From the NCBI RefSeq assembly GCF_038443705.2, contig NZ_CP151767.2, forward strand, positions 1,860,001 through 1,924,000: a stretch of DNA of 64,000 bases, given 5' to 3'. The notes below the pieces were generated by a model that did not search any database, was not told the origin of the DNA, and was given only the letters and a program-made list of their open reading frames with translations. A program made the position numbers and the translations under genes. Below, one piece after another: positions 23,975 to 36,227 of this stretch; the stretch's first letter is position 1, and each line of letters opens with the position of its first letter. The DNA is from Yoonia sp. SS1-5 (GTDB lineage: Bacteria > Pseudomonadota > Alphaproteobacteria > Rhodobacterales > Rhodobacteraceae).

Positions 23975-24646
23975 TCACTTCTTGGCGCGCCAGGTGTCCA
24001 GCCAGCGACTGATCCGGCCGCGCCGTTCGGCGACGCCTGCCTGTACCTCATCAACCTGTTCGCCAGCCGCATCCAGCAGCGGATCGACCGAGCGTTCCCA
24101 GAATTGACGCCACATGGCCCGAACGAAGGCAAAAACAAAGGCCAGGAACATGAAAAACACGATGTTGAACCACGGGATGATGGTGACATCGGGTCCTGCG
24201 ACTGTCCGTACCCCCACCGCATTTGGATAGATGCTTGCCCAGCGTATCCGCCAGCCATAATGGGTCACCACCGCCCATTCATCCCCGCGCGCAATGCTGG
24301 CAGCCTCGGCCTGCAGATCGGAGCTGTCAAATTTGAAATAGGGCGGCCAGATCCAGCCTGTGTCTTCGTTGCGATATACCATGACTTCGGAACTGTCGCG
24401 CGGAACAAAGCCCAGCAAAAATGTCTTTTGCTTTTGCGTATTGATCAGGCGCAGGTCGCGTGTCGGCTGCTCGGTCGCGCCACTGTCGGCCTGCGCAAAG
24501 AACAAACGGTTATAAGAGCTGAAATCAGTACGAATAATCTCGGTCGATGTGATCTTGACCACGTCGTGCTGTGGCAGAACATAATGCAGCAGCAGCCCGA
24601 TCAGGACAAAAGCCAGTACGCGAAAAACAGTCTTAATCTTGCGCAT
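23975..24646 (-). CDS. DUF1523-like membrane protein
   Basis: This 223-aa protein has an N-terminal TM helix (VFRVLAFVLIGLLLHYVLP), an exported beta-rich domain (about 27-160, DVVKITSTEIIRTDF), a second TM helix (IVFFMFLAFVFAFVRAMW) and a short C-terminal cytoplasmic tail. The pattern fits the DUF1523 family of Rhodobacterales, whose function is unknown; I recognise it from memory. It is the last gene of the eight-gene minus-strand block that begins at 31382 and lies 9 nt after the 91-aa membrane protein. Confidence 0.7.
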   Translation of the reverse strand: MRKIKTVFRVLAFVLIGLLLHYVLPQHDVVKITSTEIIRTDFSSYNRLFFAQADSGATEQPTRDLRLINTQKQKTFLLGFVPRDSSEVMVYRNEDTGWIWPPYFKFDSSDLQAEAASIARGDEWAVVTHYGWRIRWASIYPNAVGVRTVAGPDVTIIPWFNIVFFMFLAFVFAFVRAMWRQFWERSVDPLLDAAGEQVDEVQAGVAERRGRISRWLDTWRAKK

Positions 24647-24655
24647 GTGATATCC

Positions 24656-24931
24656 TTAATTCGTGTTGACCACGTAGACGATAACCGAAACGACAACCAC
24701 GGGGACGACGTAGACAAGTCCGATCAGTTTGGGCCGGATCGAGTTATGATACGCCTCCATCCCGTTCTTGATATAGGCATCGCGGGCCGCGGCGTCAGCC
24801 CCTTCCGGCGGATTGGCGTCAAATTCCTTTTCCAATCGTTCGCGCCGGACCGATTTGGAATAAAGCGAAATAGAAAAGTAGATAATGGTCAGGGCAACAA
24901 ACCCGAAAACGACCAGCCGTACAAATTGCAT
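24656..24931 (-). CDS. Small membrane protein, 91 aa
   Basis: It has an N-terminal TM helix (FVRLVVFGFVALTIIYFSI), a charged central stretch and a C-terminal TM helix (LIGLVYVVPVVVVSVIVYVV). ATG 24931 overlaps the preceding stop as ATGA and follows GGGAGG, which decides this start over one 27 nt upstream. Part of the AAA-ATPase block. No known family was recognised. Confidence 0.7.
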   Translation of the reverse strand: MQFVRLVVFGFVALTIIYFSISLYSKSVRRERLEKEFDANPPEGADAAARDAYIKNGMEAYHNSIRPKLIGLVYVVPVVVVSVIVYVVNTN

Positions 24932-26283
24932 CAACGCCTCCCTGTCACTGCGCCCCACGGGCCAACGCGTGTGATCAAATCCGGCTTTGGCGCCGCTGGG
25001 GCAGGTTCTGCCATGTCATCCTCGGCCCCGAAAAGGGCCGCGCGGGTCCCCGCCTTGTCGACTTGATATTCGCGTTCCAGAAACGCCGCCACATAGGCCT
25101 TCTTCTCTTCGGGCCAGCTTGCGTAGGCCCGGTAGAATACCTCCTTGTGACAGATAAAGAGCTGCCGGATATCAAGCGGCGCCAACTCCGCAAGCAACAT
25201 GTTGACCAAATCAGAATCCGCCCGTGGCTTGGCCCGTAACGTATAGAAATAGGCCGGATGCTCGGACGTGATTTTGGGCCATGGGCCATCTTCGTCCGCC
25301 CAGCGCACCAATGCGGCCAATCCTTTCCATTCCTCGGGCAGATCGCGCGCATATTGACGACCCAGCCGACGCAAATCCCGGCGGCTTGCGCCGGCCAGGT
25401 CCTCACCCATTTTTGCGGCAACAGACACGACCAGAAAATCCATCTTCTGGCGCAATATTGCACTGGAATCGACACCGCGGGCTGCGATGATCGGCTCGAC
25501 CAGATCATTCAGTTCCAGAAATTTTGCGATGGCTGACCTATCGTCAAAGTCAAAGACATAAGGGATCGGCAACTCCCCGACGCCATCCTTACCACCGGCC
25601 AAAATGGCCGCCGGATGCTCGACACCGCGAAAGACATACATGCCGCCAAAGTGATCCGTCCAGAAATTGTCCTGACTGAATTCCATCTGCTTGAGCCTGA
25701 CGGGGTTGCGCACCACATCACCTGTTTTTTTGGCCATGCCGATCATCTGTGCAATCAACACATCGTCATGCCAGGCGTCAGGCTCGGTTTTGAAACGATC
25801 AATCATCCCGCCCAATGCGTCGGCCATGGCCACCGTGCCAGAAGTCGTATCGGCCTCAATCTGCAATTTGCGGATATCAAACAGGCGCGCGGGGGTGTCG
25901 GCCAGGTAAACCGAATTGACGATCTCTCCGGCCACCGCATCCTGGGCCGTCAGCGCAAAAAGCTGGGCCCGGTTTTCTTCGATGAATTGCTTGAGGATCC
26001 CGCGAGAGGTTGAGAATTTCGCATTCAGCAGCGGGGCGCTACTCTGCTCTGTCGTCAAAAGAATGAATTGCCGGTTGACGCCCTGATGGTTCAGATACAA
26101 CGCATCATCCAACTCATCACCGATCTCGGGGCTATAGCCGGAAATGTCGATGTGAAAGGCATCCAGCGCTGTCTTGCGCCCCGACAGATGCTGTAGCGCA
26201 CGATTGTAGCGTTCGACCAGCACCGGCGCATCCACCCGGATCAAGTTTCCAAACATCAGTCCTTTTTCGATCAGGCGGTGCAT
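24931..26283 (-). CDS. Conserved hypothetical protein in the AAA-ATPase block, 450 aa
   Basis: A soluble, mixed alpha/beta protein beginning MHRLIEKGLMFGNLIRVDAP, with no signal peptide or TM helix. The C-terminal fifth is Ala/Pro-rich. ATG 26283 follows AAGGA with 6 nt spacing; a longer frame to 26328 has no such site. It is coupled by ATGA to the downstream 91-aa membrane protein and follows the 128-aa one by 34 nt. I could not assign a function. Blocks worth searching are AFHIDISGYSPEIGDELDDA and FWTDHFGGMYVFRGVEHPAA. Confidence 0.72.
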   Translation of the reverse strand: MHRLIEKGLMFGNLIRVDAPVLVERYNRALQHLSGRKTALDAFHIDISGYSPEIGDELDDALYLNHQGVNRQFILLTTEQSSAPLLNAKFSTSRGILKQFIEENRAQLFALTAQDAVAGEIVNSVYLADTPARLFDIRKLQIEADTTSGTVAMADALGGMIDRFKTEPDAWHDDVLIAQMIGMAKKTGDVVRNPVRLKQMEFSQDNFWTDHFGGMYVFRGVEHPAAILAGGKDGVGELPIPYVFDFDDRSAIAKFLELNDLVEPIIAARGVDSSAILRQKMDFLVVSVAAKMGEDLAGASRRDLRRLGRQYARDLPEEWKGLAALVRWADEDGPWPKITSEHPAYFYTLRAKPRADSDLVNMLLAELAPLDIRQLFICHKEVFYRAYASWPEEKKAYVAAFLEREYQVDKAGTRAALFGAEDDMAEPAPAAPKPDLITRVGPWGAVTGRR

Positions 26284-26317
26284 GGCACATCCTTCCATCT
26301 GCGGATGACTTCGGGGC

Positions 26318-26704
26318 TCACAGGTCATCCTCCCACATCATGAACATGACACCCAACCCGGCAACCAGCCATAGCGCCAATGCGATGGCGGTACTTTGCA
26401 GAACGGCCAGCTGATGTGGCCAACTGCGGGTGACGATGTCGAATTCGTTGAAATCAAGATAAAGCTGGAACAGCTTGTCCCAAGAGGTGAGGTCCGGCAG
26501 GCCCTGCATCGTGCTGAGCGAACTGATCAGTTGCAAAAGCCCGAACGCAAGGCTAAGCGCGATACCGACCTGGATCAGACTGGCCACCAAACGCGTTTGC
26601 GTCTGATTGACCAAAAGCCGCCCCGTCACTGCACCGGCAAACATGCACCCCAGCCAGATCAGCAGGTGAACCGGCCAAAGCTGCATGATCAGAACATCGC
26701 TCAT
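26318..26704 (-). CDS. Membrane protein, 128 aa
   Basis: It has three hydrophobic helices: MQLWPVHLLIWLGCMFAGAV, LVASLIQVGIALSLAFGLLQ, and IALALWLVAGLGVMFMMW at the end. The start is at ATG 26704 (MSDVLIMQLW), preceded by GGAGA. The much longer open frame to 27202 runs antisense-like through the neighbouring gene and is rejected. It overlaps nothing and sits 2 nt after the 114-aa membrane protein, so the two are probably partner subunits. Confidence 0.7.
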   Translation of the reverse strand: MSDVLIMQLWPVHLLIWLGCMFAGAVTGRLLVNQTQTRLVASLIQVGIALSLAFGLLQLISSLSTMQGLPDLTSWDKLFQLYLDFNEFDIVTRSWPHQLAVLQSTAIALALWLVAGLGVMFMMWEDDL

Positions 26705-26706
26705 CG

Positions 26707-27051
26707 TTACCAGGTCTCCTTTACCCAGCGCCTGGGCAGGCCGGCCACGGACAAAAGCATAATCGGGGCCCATATGATGGCCGCCATCAGCCCGAGCTTT
26801 CCGAAAAACGCAACATTCGCGGCCAGTCCGGGGGCCAGAATTTCCGCCACCGGCGTTCCCTGCCAAAGATAAAGACAGACGAAAAAAGCCGCACTCAGCA
26901 CAAACAGGATCAGGGTCGACAAAAACGCGTTCAGCAAGAGCGGGCGCACCCCTTCGGGCAAGATGCGCGCAAGGCCGCGCGGCACCACAAACCCAAGCAC
27001 CGCAATCATCAGCGCGGGCCAAAACAACGTATCGGAAATAAGACTGCCCAC
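26707..27051 (-). CDS. Membrane protein, 114 aa
   Basis: It has three predicted TM helices (FWPALMIAVLGFVVPRGLA, LLLNAFLSTLILFVLSAAFF, FFGKLGLMAAIIWAPIMLLS). The start is GTG at 27051, preceded by GGAAAG. It lies 41 nt after the AAA ATPase gene and directly before the 128-aa membrane protein. It may anchor the ATPase complex to the membrane, which is inferred from position alone. Confidence 0.68.
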   Translation of the reverse strand: MGSLISDTLFWPALMIAVLGFVVPRGLARILPEGVRPLLLNAFLSTLILFVLSAAFFVCLYLWQGTPVAEILAPGLAANVAFFGKLGLMAAIIWAPIMLLSVAGLPRRWVKETW

Positions 27052-27092
27052 GGCCTACTTTCCGACCACAGCGTGATGGATGCGGCCCCGGA

Positions 27093-29033
27093 TCATGTCT
27101 TGCTCTCAAGATACCGTTTCTTGGCGATCTCCTGGCGGCCAAAGTCACGCACCATAGCATCAATGGCAACTTCGTCGGACTTATCGGCATAGCGGAATTC
27201 ACTGTCGGCGTAGCGGTTGATCTCTTGGATGACCATGTCCACCGTGATCGGCTGGCGCAGTTCGGAAATCATACCCTTTTTGGTGTCATAATCCTTGAAC
27301 AGGAACAGGTCGGGCTCTTCCATCCATTCATCGGGCAGTTCAAAATCCATCGCGCGGACCTTCACCGCATCGGTGATGTTCTTGATCGCCCGACCGGTAA
27401 AGCGTTCATCCGCCTCCTGTATCCCTTTCAAATAGGTGCCCAGCTTAGCAATCGTGTCCAGATCACCCACCTGCGCATGGACCTGATCAAATACCTTCAG
27501 CAACCCGTCCTCATGAGGGCGGGCGTGGCTTTCAAAGGATGCGGCGACAGCCTTTTTGATTTCCTGTGCGCTAAAGACGTCATGCGCGCCAACCGGGATA
27601 TCGTGGTTCTTGCCCATCAACAGATATAGAATGTCGATGTAATCCTCGCGGGTCTGCGGGCCATCAACCAAAAACCGGGCGCCGGCCCGCTGGCGCAATG
27701 CGTCATCCACATTCTCCGGGTAGTTCGAAAACATGCCGAATGTGCAATTGCCGCGCACAACCGTATTGGCCCCGGCAAAGCTTTCCATCAAAACGGCTGT
27801 GATCTCCAGCTGGCCAGCCGATGACTGGCGATCCCCGCGCTTGCCCGCCAATTGGTCGATATCATCAATCGTGCCAAAGCCGATGACACCGGGATCTAGC
27901 ACGTTGCGGATAAAGGCCTTGGCGTTCTGGCCAGACTTGCCCTGATAGCTGTCGATATTGTCGGTACTCAGGTTTTGATAGCGGAACGGATAGCCGGCGG
28001 TCTGGCAATACTCATTGATCAGGCCGGCCATCATCTGGATCAGTGTGGTTTTCCCGGTCCCCGGTTTGCCATCCCCCATGAACGTAAAGATGAAACCTCC
28101 AAGCTCTGCGAAAGGGTTCAGCTTGCGGTCAAAATCATAGGCCATGACCATCTTGGCCAGCTTCATCGCCTGATATTTTGCAATATGGTTGCCAACGACC
28201 TCATTGGGCTTCTTGAAGGTCATCGTCAGGCTAGACCCTTTGGCCTTCCGGGCGGGCGAGAACCCGTTGATGGTGAAATCATCCGCCTCGACCCGCCAGC
28301 TTGCGGTGTTGAAACTTTCCAGCCGGCCTGCGGTGCTTGCGCGCAAGGCCACCTTGTCCATCAACTGCTCGGCATAGGCCAGCATCGTGGCAATCAGGGT
28401 CGGTTCATCCTTGGCAAATTCACCCAGCTTCTGATCAAGTTCCCAGATCGCGCCATGCAGGGCCAGTGGGGCGTTATCGGTCAACACCTCATCAACGGCG
28501 CCAACCTCGACGCTGGCCTCGGTTGAATGTGCGGCCAGCAGGTAAGACGCGGCATTTGCGAATGTGTACAAGGCCACAAGCGCCTCGGCAGCCAGATATT
28601 CGGTAAACTCCGCCGCGCGGGCATCGGGCAAACGGCCTTCCAGGTTGATGCGCTTCAATTCGGTCAGCGGCGTCTGGTCGGCATAAGCATCCGCAACCGT
28701 CAGGGCAATCGACAACGCGCGGCGCAAGGCATGCGCAACCGCGGCCTGTGCGGGGGATGTCAGCGGATCATCATCGTCCGTCTCGGCAATGCGGTCCAGC
28801 AGGCGCACGCCGCCTGCCGGGGCAGTGGTCCGGGACAAAAGGCCAGGGGTTGTTGACCGAAAGCGACGGCGGGTTGCCACGACATCCGGGGACTTTTCCG
28901 GCGTCTGCAATGACAGGCGGGCCTTGGCGATGCGTGGCGTATGGTCCAACTGCATCAACATCTCTGCCGCCGGAATATAATGCTTGCGGATATCATCCTC
29001 GCGCAGTTCCATCTGATCGCTTGTCTGGCTCAT
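27093..29033 (-). CDS. AAA-family ATPase
   Basis: This 646-aa protein has a long helical N-terminal region (about 1-300) without a recognised domain, followed by a AAA core. Walker A is GDGKPGTGKT (320-329). Walker B is VIGFGTIDDIDQLAGKRGD, with Asp-Asp where most AAA proteins have Asp-Glu. A sensor-1-like Asn lies in FGMFSNYPENVDDALRQR, and the RQRAGAR stretch could contain the arginine finger. There is no TM helix. It is the only obvious motor in the eight-gene block and probably remodels the coiled-coil protein or the membrane subunits. Confidence 0.82.
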   Translation of the reverse strand: MSQTSDQMELREDDIRKHYIPAAEMLMQLDHTPRIAKARLSLQTPEKSPDVVATRRRFRSTTPGLLSRTTAPAGGVRLLDRIAETDDDDPLTSPAQAAVAHALRRALSIALTVADAYADQTPLTELKRINLEGRLPDARAAEFTEYLAAEALVALYTFANAASYLLAAHSTEASVEVGAVDEVLTDNAPLALHGAIWELDQKLGEFAKDEPTLIATMLAYAEQLMDKVALRASTAGRLESFNTASWRVEADDFTINGFSPARKAKGSSLTMTFKKPNEVVGNHIAKYQAMKLAKMVMAYDFDRKLNPFAELGGFIFTFMGDGKPGTGKTTLIQMMAGLINEYCQTAGYPFRYQNLSTDNIDSYQGKSGQNAKAFIRNVLDPGVIGFGTIDDIDQLAGKRGDRQSSAGQLEITAVLMESFAGANTVVRGNCTFGMFSNYPENVDDALRQRAGARFLVDGPQTREDYIDILYLLMGKNHDIPVGAHDVFSAQEIKKAVAASFESHARPHEDGLLKVFDQVHAQVGDLDTIAKLGTYLKGIQEADERFTGRAIKNITDAVKVRAMDFELPDEWMEEPDLFLFKDYDTKKGMISELRQPITVDMVIQEINRYADSEFRYADKSDEVAIDAMVRDFGRQEIAKKRYLESKT

Positions 29034-29081
29034 CGTGTTGTCATTTCCTCTGTTCGGTCATCTTCTGCATCACGCCACGGC

Positions 29082-29107
29082 GTAGGATGGGTCTTGACCC
29101 ATCTTAC
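29082..29107 (-). repeat. Dispersed palindromic unit, family 1, copy D
   Basis: GTAGGATGGGTC-TT-GACCCATCTTAC has 12-bp arms with one mismatch. Read on minus it starts TAAGATGGGTC, and that TAA is the stop codon of the 373-aa gene (29104-29106). The flank CTACGCCG matches the other copies. The A-to-G change in the arm is compensated on the other side, so the stem is conserved. Confidence 0.82.
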
Positions 29108-30225
29108 CTGTAGCTCAGGACCCGGCCGCCATCGCTGACGACAAATTTGTGTACCTGGCTGAACCCGGGGGGATTGCGCTCTGCCAGCGCCTGATACGGG
29201 CGTTGCGGCATGATCAATGATCGTTCCATGCGGGTCGCCCCGGTATCGCCGCCGCCGCCCTCAAACGGATCAAGCGCAAAGATCTGGCGTTCCACGCTGC
29301 CGAACCAGCCTGATTTCACTTTCTCGACACGCGCCGACACCAATTCTTCCTCGGTCCAGACCAGGGCCCAATCCTCGCCCACAGGGGCCTTCGCGGCTTT
29401 CAGCACCTCGCGCAACGGGCCCGATTGCTGGGTGAACGCAGATGAATACATCGGGCCCACGTGAAAGCGGCGCAAACGGGTCGGGTGCAAATCGTCAAAA
29501 TCCGCGTCAAAGCCCTTTGCAATTGTCAAAAGCTTCAGATGCGCAACAGACTGGGCCATCAGATGGGCCTGCGCCTCGGGCCAGCGGCGTTCATCCTTGG
29601 GCAGGCCCGTGCGGCCGCTATCCTCAAGATCCATCAGATAGATCGTGGGCAGATTGACCTGACTGTCATACACGGCCCAATGGATCTGAAACCGGCGGCG
29701 ATCGCCCTTGTTCTCAATCCAGACGGCCTGCGGATCATTGCGCGCCCAGAACAGGCCCCCTCGCGCCAGTTCTTCATAGTAGAGCCGTTGCGACAGGGCA
29801 AATTGAAGCTTCGTGGGGATTTCTTGTTCCCCCAAAATCACCCGCACCATCTGGTCTTTCAGCGCATCGACCGATGGCTGGGATGCCAGATGCCGGTCGG
29901 CCTGAAGCGCATCATTGGCCATCTCCAGCAGCTCTTGATAAACAGGAAAGCCACTTTCATGGCGGTCAAAAGTCAGCGCACCCGCATGGGCATAACGACC
30001 CGAGAAATGGTATTTGTGCGACAAGGCCGTGAAGGTCCAATTAAGACCAACCAGATACTGCGCAAGAGCTTCAATATCAGCCCGTGAAAACCTGCCCTCG
30101 GCCTCCATCGTTGCGGCAACCTTGGTCAAATGCTCGGTAATCCTGGCAAACTTGCCAAAATACCGGCGCGTCACGCGGGTATCTTCCAGCTTCATGTGAT
30201 CGGCTTGGAGGTCTGACTGAGTCAT
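29104..30225 (-). CDS. Conserved hypothetical protein in the AAA-ATPase block, 373 aa
   Basis: A soluble protein with no TM helix or signal peptide. The N-terminal 110 residues are mainly helical (RRYFGKFARITEHLTKVAAT), then come mixed segments such as RFQIHWAVYDSQVNLPTIYL and SGWFGSVERQIFALDPFEGG. A GGAGG site precedes ATG 30225. It sits between the coiled-coil gene and the AAA ATPase, and a family-1 palindrome overlaps its stop codon. The palindrome may lower expression of the downstream genes. No known family was recognised. Confidence 0.72.
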   Translation of the reverse strand: MTQSDLQADHMKLEDTRVTRRYFGKFARITEHLTKVAATMEAEGRFSRADIEALAQYLVGLNWTFTALSHKYHFSGRYAHAGALTFDRHESGFPVYQELLEMANDALQADRHLASQPSVDALKDQMVRVILGEQEIPTKLQFALSQRLYYEELARGGLFWARNDPQAVWIENKGDRRRFQIHWAVYDSQVNLPTIYLMDLEDSGRTGLPKDERRWPEAQAHLMAQSVAHLKLLTIAKGFDADFDDLHPTRLRRFHVGPMYSSAFTQQSGPLREVLKAAKAPVGEDWALVWTEEELVSARVEKVKSGWFGSVERQIFALDPFEGGGGDTGATRMERSLIMPQRPYQALAERNPPGFSQVHKFVVSDGGRVLSYR

Positions 30226-30261
30226 GGCTCAACCTCCGGCGATGACGTGGTCAGCGGTAGA

Positions 30262-30290
30262 CAGAGGTCCCGGATCACGTCCGGGACGGC
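30262..30290 (-). repeat. Dispersed palindromic unit, family 3, copy 1
   Basis: CAGAGGTCCCGGATCACGTC begins the unit. GTCCCGGA (30267-30274) and TCCGGGAC (30280-30287) form a perfect 8-bp stem. The same unit in reverse orientation is at 46677-46708. It lies in the 74-nt gap between the coiled-coil gene and the 373-aa gene. Confidence 0.65.
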
Positions 30291-30299
30291 ACCCTACCT

Positions 30300-31382
30300 T
30301 CAAGAGTCAGCCCCATATTGATTGCTGTCATGCTTCTCGACGATCTTCTGGAAACGGCGGACGAAACGCTCATCGGCCTTTGCCTTTTGCTCCAGAACCT
30401 CGCGCGCAAACACCATATGGTCTTCATGGGCTTCCATCATATCCGCCATCCGGGCATTTGTGGCCGAGCCAATGGCAGCCATGGCTGTCTGCGCCTCTTG
30501 GTCGGTTTTGACACCAATCTCGTTGATCTGGTGTGCAACATCCTGCTGCTGGGCCGTCTTCAAGGATTTTGACAGGGCGTCATAAAGCACAACGCGCTGC
30601 TTGGTGTCTGTCTGCAACTTGTTGATCAGGACCATCTGGGTCGCAGCCTGGTTCTGCAGACTGTCGATCCAGGTCTTGCCCTTCTCAATATAGCGTTCCA
30701 GCGTCTGGGACTTGGCCAGATGCACCTGCTCTTGCTGGACCATCTCGTTATATTTGCCGTTCAAAGCGGCCAATTCGGTTTCCAGCTTGGTGCGGGCGGC
30801 GGCATCCTGCTCGACCGAGATTTTGCCCTCAAGCTCGATGATCTTCGGATCCATCGCCAGAATATCCGCACGCACGGTCTCAAGCGCACCGACGGTTGCC
30901 TCGCGCTCTTCCAATGTGCCTGAGAGGTTCTGTTCAACGCTGACCTTCTGTTCGTTCAGAACACCCAACTGTCCCTCCAGCAGCTTCATGATCACGTCGG
31001 ATTTGCTGATCAGATCCTGTAACTTGTCGTCAATATTCGCTGTCCGCACCCGTTCCTGGCGCATGCTGTCGGCCTTGGCTTTGCTGAAGAAGCCGATAAA
31101 GCTTTCCATCCCGGTCTTTGAGCGCATCTCGTCAAAGTCTTTGGAAAAGGCAGAGGTGACATCATCGAGACCCATGATCAGTTCGGCGATATTCGCATTC
31201 ATCAGCTCGGTATGGGCGTGCACATCCGAAAGGCTGGCATTTTCAATATCCACCGAAATATCCGTCCCCTCGGCCATCTTGGCGCGCGCCGTCTCGATCC
31301 GGCTGGTCAGCTCGGAGATCTTGCTTTGCGCCTCGGCGACCTGCGATTGCGATTCCTGAATCTGGGTTTCAAAATTTGCCAT
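30300..31382 (-). CDS. Coiled-coil protein, possibly TelA-like, 360 aa
   Basis: Almost entirely helical, with heptad-like coiled coils at about 1-40, 120-180 and 185-250. The order of elements recalls the toxic-anion-resistance (TelA/KlaA) fold: a SFIGFFSKAKADSM turn, a long coil, the block LERYIEKGKTWIDSLQNQAA and a Gln-rich helix LKTAQQQDVAHQINEIG. The match is weak and unverified. It is the first gene of the block, with its own promoter (31415-31443) and a GAGGGA ribosome site. A coiled-coil ATPase substrate or membrane scaffold is the most natural guess. Confidence 0.75.
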   Translation of the reverse strand: MANFETQIQESQSQVAEAQSKISELTSRIETARAKMAEGTDISVDIENASLSDVHAHTELMNANIAELIMGLDDVTSAFSKDFDEMRSKTGMESFIGFFSKAKADSMRQERVRTANIDDKLQDLISKSDVIMKLLEGQLGVLNEQKVSVEQNLSGTLEEREATVGALETVRADILAMDPKIIELEGKISVEQDAAARTKLETELAALNGKYNEMVQQEQVHLAKSQTLERYIEKGKTWIDSLQNQAATQMVLINKLQTDTKQRVVLYDALSKSLKTAQQQDVAHQINEIGVKTDQEAQTAMAAIGSATNARMADMMEAHEDHMVFAREVLEQKAKADERFVRRFQKIVEKHDSNQYGADS

Positions 31383-31414: not shown

Positions 31415-31443
31415 TACTTAAGTAGTGCTGACCCATTTTTCAA
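31415..31443 (-). promoter_or_regulatory. Promoter of the eight-gene AAA-ATPase block, with palindromic -10
   Basis: On minus, TTGAAA (31443-31438), a 17-bp spacer and TAAGTA (31420-31415) form a good sigma-70-type promoter 33 nt before the ATG of the coiled-coil gene. The perfect palindrome TACTTAAGTA (31415-31424) covers the -10 and may be an operator. Confidence 0.5.
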
Positions 31444-34750: not shown

Positions 34751-35248
34751 TCAGGTCGCGCGTTTTCTGGACTTTTTGATCAACATCTCGCGTTTGGTAC
34801 GGCTGAGCCGGTCAAAAAACATCTTGCCATGCAAATGGTCGATCTGGTGCTGCACCGATGTGGCCCATAGCCCCACAAGGTCCTTGCGATCCCAGACCCC
34901 CTGATCATTGAGAAAACGCACGGTTACCGCGCGTGGACGGCTCAGCTTGGCCCAGACGCCCGGCAGGTTGGGCGAGCCTTCCTCGTGATCGCGAAATTCA
35001 ACGCTTGTATGCAGGATTTCGGGATTTGCCATGCGGATCGCCTGCCCCCGGCTATCGGATGCATCAACGACGGCCAGCGCCAGATCAATCCCCAACTGCG
35101 GTGCGGCCAGCCCCACGCCCGGCATTGTATCCATGGCCACAATCATTTCGTCCCAGATGACGCGCAGATCGTCTGTGATCTCGGTGACCGGTGCGGCAGG
35201 TTTGCGCAAGATCGGGTGCGGCCACATGACAAAAGGGCGGTGGGTCAT
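34751..35248 (-). CDS. Degenerate peptide deformylase paralogue
   Basis: This 165-aa protein has the deformylase fold but altered active-site motifs. Motif 1 is intact (GVGLAAPQLG, 44-53). Motif 2 reads EEGSPNLPG, with Ser92 where the metal-binding Cys should be. Motif 3 reads HQIDH (134-138), with Gln replacing the catalytic Glu. Such a protein is unlikely to deformylate and may bind nascent peptides or regulate. ATG 35248 overlaps the previous stop (ATGA); the frame to 35383 inside the upstream gene is a shadow. Third of three tandem paralogues. Confidence 0.88.
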   Translation of the reverse strand: MTHRPFVMWPHPILRKPAAPVTEITDDLRVIWDEMIVAMDTMPGVGLAAPQLGIDLALAVVDASDSRGQAIRMANPEILHTSVEFRDHEEGSPNLPGVWAKLSRPRAVTVRFLNDQGVWDRKDLVGLWATSVQHQIDHLHGKMFFDRLSRTKREMLIKKSRKRAT

Positions 35249-35706
35249 ATTTCCGACCCCGTCTGGGTGATCAGCAAGCCGTTCAGATGATCCAACTCGT
35301 GGCAGACACAGACCGCGCCAATCCCCTGAAACCGGGCCGTCTGCCGGATACCTGCAGGGCTGGTCCAGGCCAGATCCACCCATACCGGGCGGGCCACATC
35401 AAAGCTGCGGTCAGGAATGGACAGGCACGCCTCGGGGCCTTGCTGTCGAAATGGGGCGGCCGCGACAATTTCCGGGTTCACAAAGGCAAGCGGCTGCTTT
35501 TCGCCCTCTTTCCAAGTCGTATCAGTCACAAATACCCGGTCCGCCACACCGATCTGCGGGGCAGCCAGACCGCGACCATGGGCGTCATACATCGTCTCGA
35601 AAAGATCGGCGATCAGGGTTTGCAGACCATCGCCGAAATGGGTCACGGGTGCGGCAGTTTCGGCAAGGATCGGATCACCCTCGAACCGCAGGGGGCGCAC
35701 CGCCAT
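35245..35706 (-). CDS. Peptide deformylase-like protein, second paralogue
   Basis: This 153-aa protein has GRGLAAPQIGV (motif 1), EACLSIPD with Ala93 in place of the usual Gly but Cys94 kept (motif 2), and HELDH (136-140, motif 3). All metal ligands and the catalytic Glu are present, so activity is plausible. It is coupled by TGATG to the canonical def upstream and by ATGA to the degenerate paralogue downstream. Confidence 0.88.
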   Translation of the reverse strand: MAVRPLRFEGDPILAETAAPVTHFGDGLQTLIADLFETMYDAHGRGLAAPQIGVADRVFVTDTTWKEGEKQPLAFVNPEIVAAAPFRQQGPEACLSIPDRSFDVARPVWVDLAWTSPAGIRQTARFQGIGAVCVCHELDHLNGLLITQTGSEI

Positions 35707-36227
35707 CAGCTACGCGCCATTTCGCGTTTCAGCTTTTGCATCTTGCGGGTGATCATCTGCCGCCTGAGCGGCTTGAGGTAGTCAATGAACAGCTTGCCAT
35801 CCAAGTGGTCGATCTCGTGCTGGACACATGTGGCCCACAGCCCGTCAAAACGCTCGCGCTGGGTCGTGCCGGACAGGTCCATCCAGGCGACCTCCACCTC
35901 GGCGGGGCGCTCAACCTCGGCATATTGGTCGGGGATCGACAGGCAACCCTCGTCATAGACATTGCGTTCGTCCGAGGACCAGACAACAGCCGGGTTGATC
36001 AGAACCATGGGGCGGGTATTCGCCCCCTCTTCCTTTTCGCAATCCATCACGATCAGCCGCTGCATTTCAGCCACTTGCGGGGCGGCAAGGCCAATCCCGG
36101 GCGCATCATACATGGTTTCAAGCATGTCATCGGCCAATCGGCGGATGTCATCGGTTACCTCCACCACGGGTGCTGTGGTTTTCTTCAACCGGGGATCGGG
36201 GTGAATAAGGATCTTGCGTAATGCCAT
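35706..36227 (-). CDS. def: Peptide deformylase
   Basis: This 173-aa enzyme removes the formyl group from new proteins. All three motifs are canonical: GIGLAAPQ (44-51), EGCLSIPD (93-100, Cys95 ligand) and QHEIDH (136-141). It is the first gene of def-def2-def3-fmt-VOC on minus. Its promoter must lie in the 117-nt gap shared with the divergent membrane-protein/XRE pair. Confidence 0.95.
   Translation of the reverse strand: MALRKILIHPDPRLKKTTAPVVEVTDDIRRLADDMLETMYDAPGIGLAAPQVAEMQRLIVMDCEKEEGANTRPMVLINPAVVWSSDERNVYDEGCLSIPDQYAEVERPAEVEVAWMDLSGTTQRERFDGLWATCVQHEIDHLDGKLFIDYLKPLRRQMITRKMQKLKREMARS

Follow-up and report, generated by a model that had tools for sequence, protein, structure and literature searches.

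What kind of system is formed by eight closely spaced genes, encoding an AAA ATPase, a coiled-coil protein, two further soluble proteins and four membrane proteins, that are found in the genome of Yoonia sp. SS1-5, a member of the Rhodobacteraceae? The genes are located in a stretch of 64,000 nucleotides (nt) of the contig NZ_CP151767.2 (positions 1,860,001 to 1,924,000), which we refer to as the window and whose internal positions we use throughout. The original prediction, which was derived from the DNA sequence by itself, had viewed these genes as one system, probably a membrane-remodelling or envelope-stress machine. The eight open reading frames (ORFs) do indeed follow each other in the proposed order on the minus strand, from position 31382 down to 23975, with intergenic gaps of at most 74 nt. 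What had been missed is that they do not form one fixed system but fall into two modules, which can be separated from each other, and a slot of highly variable content. We tentatively interpret this arrangement as a conserved AAA machine at the inner membrane that would operate with an exchangeable effector gene, likely in phage defence, and we assign this interpretation a probability of about 40%.

The first module (module C) comprises the genes, here numbered by their order on the minus strand, for the coiled-coil protein (g1, 360 amino acids [aa], 30300..31382), a soluble protein without known family (g2, 373 aa, 29104..30225), the AAA ATPase (g3, 646 aa, 27093..29033) and a DUF6638 protein (g6, 450 aa from the MHRLIEK start, 24931..26283). 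The second (module M) consists of the gene for a DUF1523 membrane protein (g8, 223 aa, 23975..24646), often together with that for a small membrane protein (g7, 91 aa, 24656..24931) and that for a g4-type protein. Situated between the AAA stop codon and the DUF6638 gene is the slot, which is filled here by g4 (114 aa, 26707..27051) and g5 (128 aa, 26318..26704), and thus spans positions 26318..27051. In agreement with the original description of the membrane proteins, three transmembrane (TM) helices each are predicted for g4 and g5, two each for g7 and g8, and none for g1, g2, g3 and g6. Matches above the Pfam cut-offs were obtained for three of the eight proteins (AAA, DUF6638 and DUF1523), and scans with the NCBIfam and PADLOC models yielded nothing convincing for any of them.

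To describe the conservation of these genes, we scanned genomes with the AAA protein, kept the best 80 of at least 580 relatives and added four further loci; two of the resulting 84 loci (L016 and L031) probably stem from the same contig. The coiled-coil protein was present in 82 of them, g2 in 83, DUF6638 in 79, DUF1523 in 76 and g7 in 75, and in 78 of 85 loci, counting the window, the four genes of module C are collinear and share a strand. DUF6638 was absent from five loci, two of which (L085 and L088) end at a contig end and two of which (L084 and L092) do not; L091 carries the AAA gene alone. A g4-type protein was detected in 23 of the 84 loci; g5 gave no tblastn match in any of them and no significant match among the 83 slot ORFs introduced below. 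The neighbourhood noted originally is therefore real, but its eight genes are not conserved as one set.

The two modules can be told apart because DUF1523 units stand without the core elsewhere. Among 149 genera of this largely marine family, the AAA gene was found in 63 and not found in 86, and DUF1523 was present in 130, in 68 of them without the AAA gene. In 55 of the 63 genera possessing the AAA gene, DUF1523 lies no more than 6 kb downstream of it; in seven of the other eight it is on another contig, and in one there is none. We read 20 hand-picked DUF1523 regions of 12.7 to 14 kb that lack the AAA gene, eight of them chosen for a known g4-type protein. The profiles of the core proteins matched nowhere in these 20 regions, and DUF1523 was accompanied by g7 in 14 and by a g4-type protein in eight. 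These core-free units (L240-L259) adjoin genes for YkuD, M24 peptidase, aldehyde dehydrogenase and MarR proteins, the same kinds of neighbours as those flanking module C, and hydrolase neighbours are likewise common to both, a pattern that would suit gain or loss of module C at these sites.

In 79 loci, we inspected the slot, from the AAA stop codon to the DUF6638 start, for sense ORFs with a length of 70 aa or more. It holds 78 such ORFs in 37 clusters, mostly small membrane proteins (68 with a predicted TM helix), and is shorter than 160 nt in six loci. The automatic choice gave no slot ORF in nine more loci, and reading them yielded candidates in six. Sensitive clustering of 83 slot ORFs (76 plus seven from loci read individually) resulted in 22 superfamilies, the largest of which, small three-helix proteins related to g4, is represented in 36 loci; a membrane protein family with a GDTLAG motif occupies the slot of seven loci, and one of its members matches putAbiC. 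At an E-value of 1e-3, Pfam models matched only four of the 83 ORFs (AbiJ_NTD4 twice, Mrr and putAbiC), and all four belong to abortive-infection or restriction families; the other models listed match the Mrr protein. The gene for this Mrr-type restriction protein, which has both Mrr domains, sits in the slot of a Ruegeria locus (L089:11931-12848) and was recognised by PADLOC as a type IV restriction enzyme; PADLOC also returned a weak HEPN resemblance. As a control, we considered 83 of 154 flanking ORFs, near-duplicates being left out by hand; they match 81 families, and none of the 25 shown is concerned with abortive infection or restriction. The same holds for the 21 families matched by 24 ORFs upstream of the core-free DUF1523 units (20 loci), which are metabolic, transport and regulatory families; one ABC-type ATPase among them is hit by a model bearing the AbiEii name as well. 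A further variable position, smaller than the slot, is found between the coiled-coil gene and g2 in many loci (e.g., L019:8456-8761 and L026:8518-8853). It harbours 43 small sense ORFs, some of which are visibly hydrophobic and some of which may be spurious.

How sharply the slot is delimited became apparent from 18 loci of Ruegeria and its relatives, 16 of which share the same flank, read by us as flagellar. Median protein identities in this group are 97% for the coiled-coil protein, 96% for g2, 95% for the AAA protein, 90% for DUF6638, 92% for the FlgI-like neighbour, 60% for g7 and 67% for DUF1523, and the slots of these same loci carry 15 clusters of ORFs of at least 70 aa, or 12 superfamilies by sensitive clustering. 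Pairwise comparison of the DNA of 13 of the 18 loci gave median identities of about 93% up to the AAA stop codon, 44% in the following block and 95% in the start of the DUF6638 gene; the 60 nt preceding this start show no apparent relationship in most of the 17 loci listed. In 30 of 64 loci, the first slot ORF begins within the last 4 nt of the AAA gene or immediately at its end. A GGAG or GAGG stretch is present within the last 24 nt of the AAA gene in 64 of 85 loci and at the 3' end of the DUF6638 gene, which precedes g7, in 63 of 79; the corresponding figures are 5 of 83 for the coiled-coil gene, 4 of 84 for g2, none of 72 for g7 and 2 of 77 for DUF1523. The slot also differs from the core in its GC content (52.4% versus 58.4%) and is the poorer of the two in 57 of 72 loci (Wilcoxon p 1.8e-9, an optimistic value since the loci are related).

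These data demonstrate two modules and a sharply bounded slot whose contents differ between close relatives and include four genes of the abortive-infection and restriction kinds. It is because a conserved motor is combined with an exchangeable, often translationally tied gene, and because the few recognisable contents are of these kinds, that we favour a core working with an effector.

The AAA domain of g3 scores 44.6 bits against PF00004 (cut-off 21.2; E 2.4e-11). All 15 aligned relatives share its Walker A motif, the DD of its Walker B motif and the pore-loop tyrosine (Y363) without exception, so that the odd DD noticed in the original prediction, in which aspartate takes the place of the catalytic glutamate, is a genuine trait of these proteins. 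In comparisons with solved structures, g3 aligns with an i-AAA protease, fidgetin-like 1 and Vps4, and a relative from Vibrio aligns with VCP-like and Cdc48 proteins; a profile search against solved structures returned nothing at 0.001. Judged by its sequence, g3 is a classical AAA remodeller of the Vps4/fidgetin/Cdc48/FtsH class, and the AAA motor that had been proposed is hence supported. It does not qualify as Vps4 proper: neither the MIT nor the Vps4 C-terminal domain was recovered in a Pfam scan up to an E-value of 10, which gave only AAA, AAA_19 and ABC_tran, and its first 300 residues match no known Pfam family.

Family membership is unambiguous for g6 (DUF6638, PF20343; 785 bits, cut-off 27, E 2.5e-236) and for g8, whose DUF1523 label in the original prediction is confirmed (PF07509; 199 bits, cut-off 23, E 4.4e-59). 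The predicted structure of the DUF6638 protein (pLDDT 85.2) has no match in the Protein Data Bank (PDB) at an E-value of 0.001, and g2 was well modelled without a confident PDB match. A full-text literature search found DUF6638 named in no paper and DUF1523 only in papers whose titles concern other subjects, which is in line with the original statement that no described system of such composition was known. For g2 and DUF6638, and for the widespread pair of coiled-coil and AAA proteins, we found no assigned job.

The core extends beyond the Rhodobacteraceae. The g2 profile matches 26 of 398 genomes of the phylum, among them 14 of the 27 listed for this family. In 10 of 11 rhizobial loci (the exception being L182), the core is followed by the gene for a DUF2333-type membrane protein, and seven of the 11 (L131, L132, L136, L137, L140, L178 and L232) carry a DUF559 endonuclease gene in the slot; an IS4-like transposase gene stands beside it in L178. 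The four-gene core is also present on 0.9-Mb megaplasmids of Vibrio (L179 and L180), upstream of an mfd gene and with no DUF2333 gene next to it. We counted these megaplasmid copies and the presence of the AAA gene in fewer than half of the genera surveyed, a patchy spread, in favour of a defence function. A plasmid of Rhizobium leguminosarum (L181:11794-14148) possesses only a diverged coiled-coil gene and DUF2333 where a relative has the whole set, and the same pair is found without the ATPase in another rhizobial genome (L229:4422-6722). A genome from outside the class carries DUF2333 and PspA genes close together (L219:5474-7905).

We envisage that the four cytosolic core proteins would constitute a machine powered by ATP and attached to the inner membrane, in which the AAA ring may thread or disassemble the coiled-coil protein; threading is suggested by the aromatic pore loop. 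A membrane partner, g7 with DUF1523 in Yoonia and DUF2333 in rhizobia, would anchor the machine there. Phage attack or another disturbance might then alter the state of the core and free the slot protein, which would damage the membrane or nucleic acid; this protein is in most cases small and membrane-bound by prediction, but in some cases of the putAbiC-like, weakly HEPN-like, AbiJ or Mrr type. Taken further, the core could stand for a new class of immune machine, an abundant AAA motor on a coiled-coil polymer with interchangeable membrane anchors that guards and triggers an effector cassette plugged in between the AAA stop codon and DUF6638, an extension that we regard as rather doubtful.

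A number of findings weigh against a role in defence. The core proteins have only weak PADLOC matches of the AAA and coiled-coil type (e.g., TRIP13, 2.4e-5; REase_II, 6.4e-5) and no convincing defence family, and their flanks look metabolic or flagellar, unlike a defence island. In the Ruegeria group, the coiled-coil, g2 and AAA proteins (95-97%) are more conserved than the FlgI-like flank protein. The codon bias of the core is stronger than that of most neighbours (median Nc 41-44 versus 45-52); the flanking aldehyde dehydrogenase gene is as biased (Nc 41.8), and the DUF6638 gene of the window itself (50.2) does not share this stronger bias. Conservation and codon bias together suggest that the core is steadily and highly expressed, which is unusual for defence. 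With respect to the slot, PADLOC assigned 13 families to slot ORFs and 16, mostly weak, to flank ORFs, so that the two sets are not separated. Moreover, the flank controls were ORFs of at least 120 aa and therefore likelier to match Pfam than the slot ORFs (at least 70 aa). The GDTLAG-family slot protein of L044 has relatives in eight of 149 genomes, four next to the AAA gene and four elsewhere; slot genes therefore live elsewhere, too. The commonest slot protein, the g4 type, accompanies DUF1523 even where the AAA gene is missing (12 of 12 genomes) and may therefore belong to module M. The ribosome-binding-like stretch at the 3' end of the AAA gene coincides with codons for conserved residues and need not owe its presence to selection for ribosome binding, and all loci compared are related to one another.

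Several of these findings fit the main rival explanation, a housekeeping envelope machine. On this view, DUF1523 or DUF2333 would be served at the inner membrane by an abundant remodeller made of the AAA and coiled-coil proteins, and the operon of this remodeller, which is strongly expressed, would simply be a permissive site at which orphan genes, including some for defence, land by recombination. The core's strong conservation and codon bias, stable chromosomal sites, the broad distribution of DUF1523, the placement of GDTLAG-family genes elsewhere and the ribosome-binding-like stretch on offer at the AAA 3' end all speak for such a machine, which we consider a serious contender, if short of an even chance. 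A mere landing site accords less well with the rarity of short gaps, the many genera in which the AAA gene was not found and the copies on megaplasmids. It is also at odds with the larger slot genes that do not code for small TM proteins: 25 of the 79 core-carrying loci have them, whereas nothing upstream of DUF1523 in the 20 hand-picked core-free loci matched an abortive-infection or restriction family, a comparison in which the criteria differ. The abundance of TM helices among the slot ORFs and the fast divergence of g7 and DUF1523 could alternatively reflect a diversifying cell-surface or kin-recognition system, whose variable slot membrane proteins would be moved or regulated by the core; we judge this improbable, since soluble slot proteins of the Mrr and AbiJ kinds do not conform to it.

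Least probable is that g1 belongs to the TelA, PspA or ESCRT-III families and acts with their known partner ATPase, even though the AAA domain of g3 aligns with Vps4. The C-terminal half of g1 is strongly conserved, and the protein had originally been labelled TelA-like. However, g1 has no Pfam match to TelA (PF05816), the hhalign probabilities are 1.9 and 2.9, and the score (26.2) remains below the best of 20 reversed controls (34.0). PspA/IM30 (PF04012) likewise gave no Pfam match; the probabilities of 28.5 and 17.6 concern coiled-coil stretches only, and this weak likeness is reflected in a score (31.8) slightly above the best of 20 reversed controls (27.1). True TelA and PspA genes stand elsewhere in the same genome. 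The profile comparisons thus do not support homology to either family, and what persists of the proposed analogy to Vps4/ESCRT and TelA systems is an AAA motor, a conserved coiled-coil partner and membrane proteins.

The single promoter that had been placed at 31415-31443 was not confirmed. By our own reading, this site offers TTGAAA and TAAGTA spaced by 17 nt, with five of six matching positions in the first hexamer and two of six in the second; a promoter scan listed nothing there and found two promoter-like sites in the region, compared with a mean of 5.7 in shuffled sequences. Farther upstream, positions 34751-36227 contain three tandem frames, presumably peptide deformylase paralogues, adjoining a gene that we take to be formyltransferase-like.

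If the slot proteins are effectors of the core, as we tentatively propose, the locus would represent a modular immune architecture of a new kind, from which candidate effectors could be drawn; if they are not, it provides a clean case of a gene-exchange site within a conserved operon. Either way, the slot is a natural experiment in which one chassis, often at one chromosomal site, is combined with many alternative partners.

How does this arrangement compare with known systems? With Vps4-ESCRT-III, Cdc48 and fidgetin-like 1, it shares the classical AAA domain, the Walker A motif and the aromatic pore loop, as well as a coiled-coil partner gene and membrane proteins, encoded here in one operon. 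It departs from them in the DD that replaces DE in Walker B, in the first 300 residues of the ATPase, which match no known family, and in a partner without detected homology to PspA-type proteins; to our knowledge, DUF6638 and g2 have no counterpart in Vps4-ESCRT-III or other classical AAA systems. TelA resembles g1 in its helical nature and similar size, but profile similarity is lacking, and the genome encodes a separate, real TelA. Modular abortive-infection systems of the CBASS type have exchangeable effectors, and the conserved core next to a variable gene, with alternative membrane and nuclease-like candidate effectors, is reminiscent of them; unlike these systems, our locus has no recognised nucleotide cyclase or known sensor, its core is highly conserved, and it was not seen in defence islands. 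Core-genome defence hotspots (PMC10250203, PMC10121019) are likewise reported to have variable, partly defensive content between conserved flanks. In contrast to such hotspots, the slot described here lies within one operon, contains between one and three small genes and often adjoins the upstream stop codon directly.

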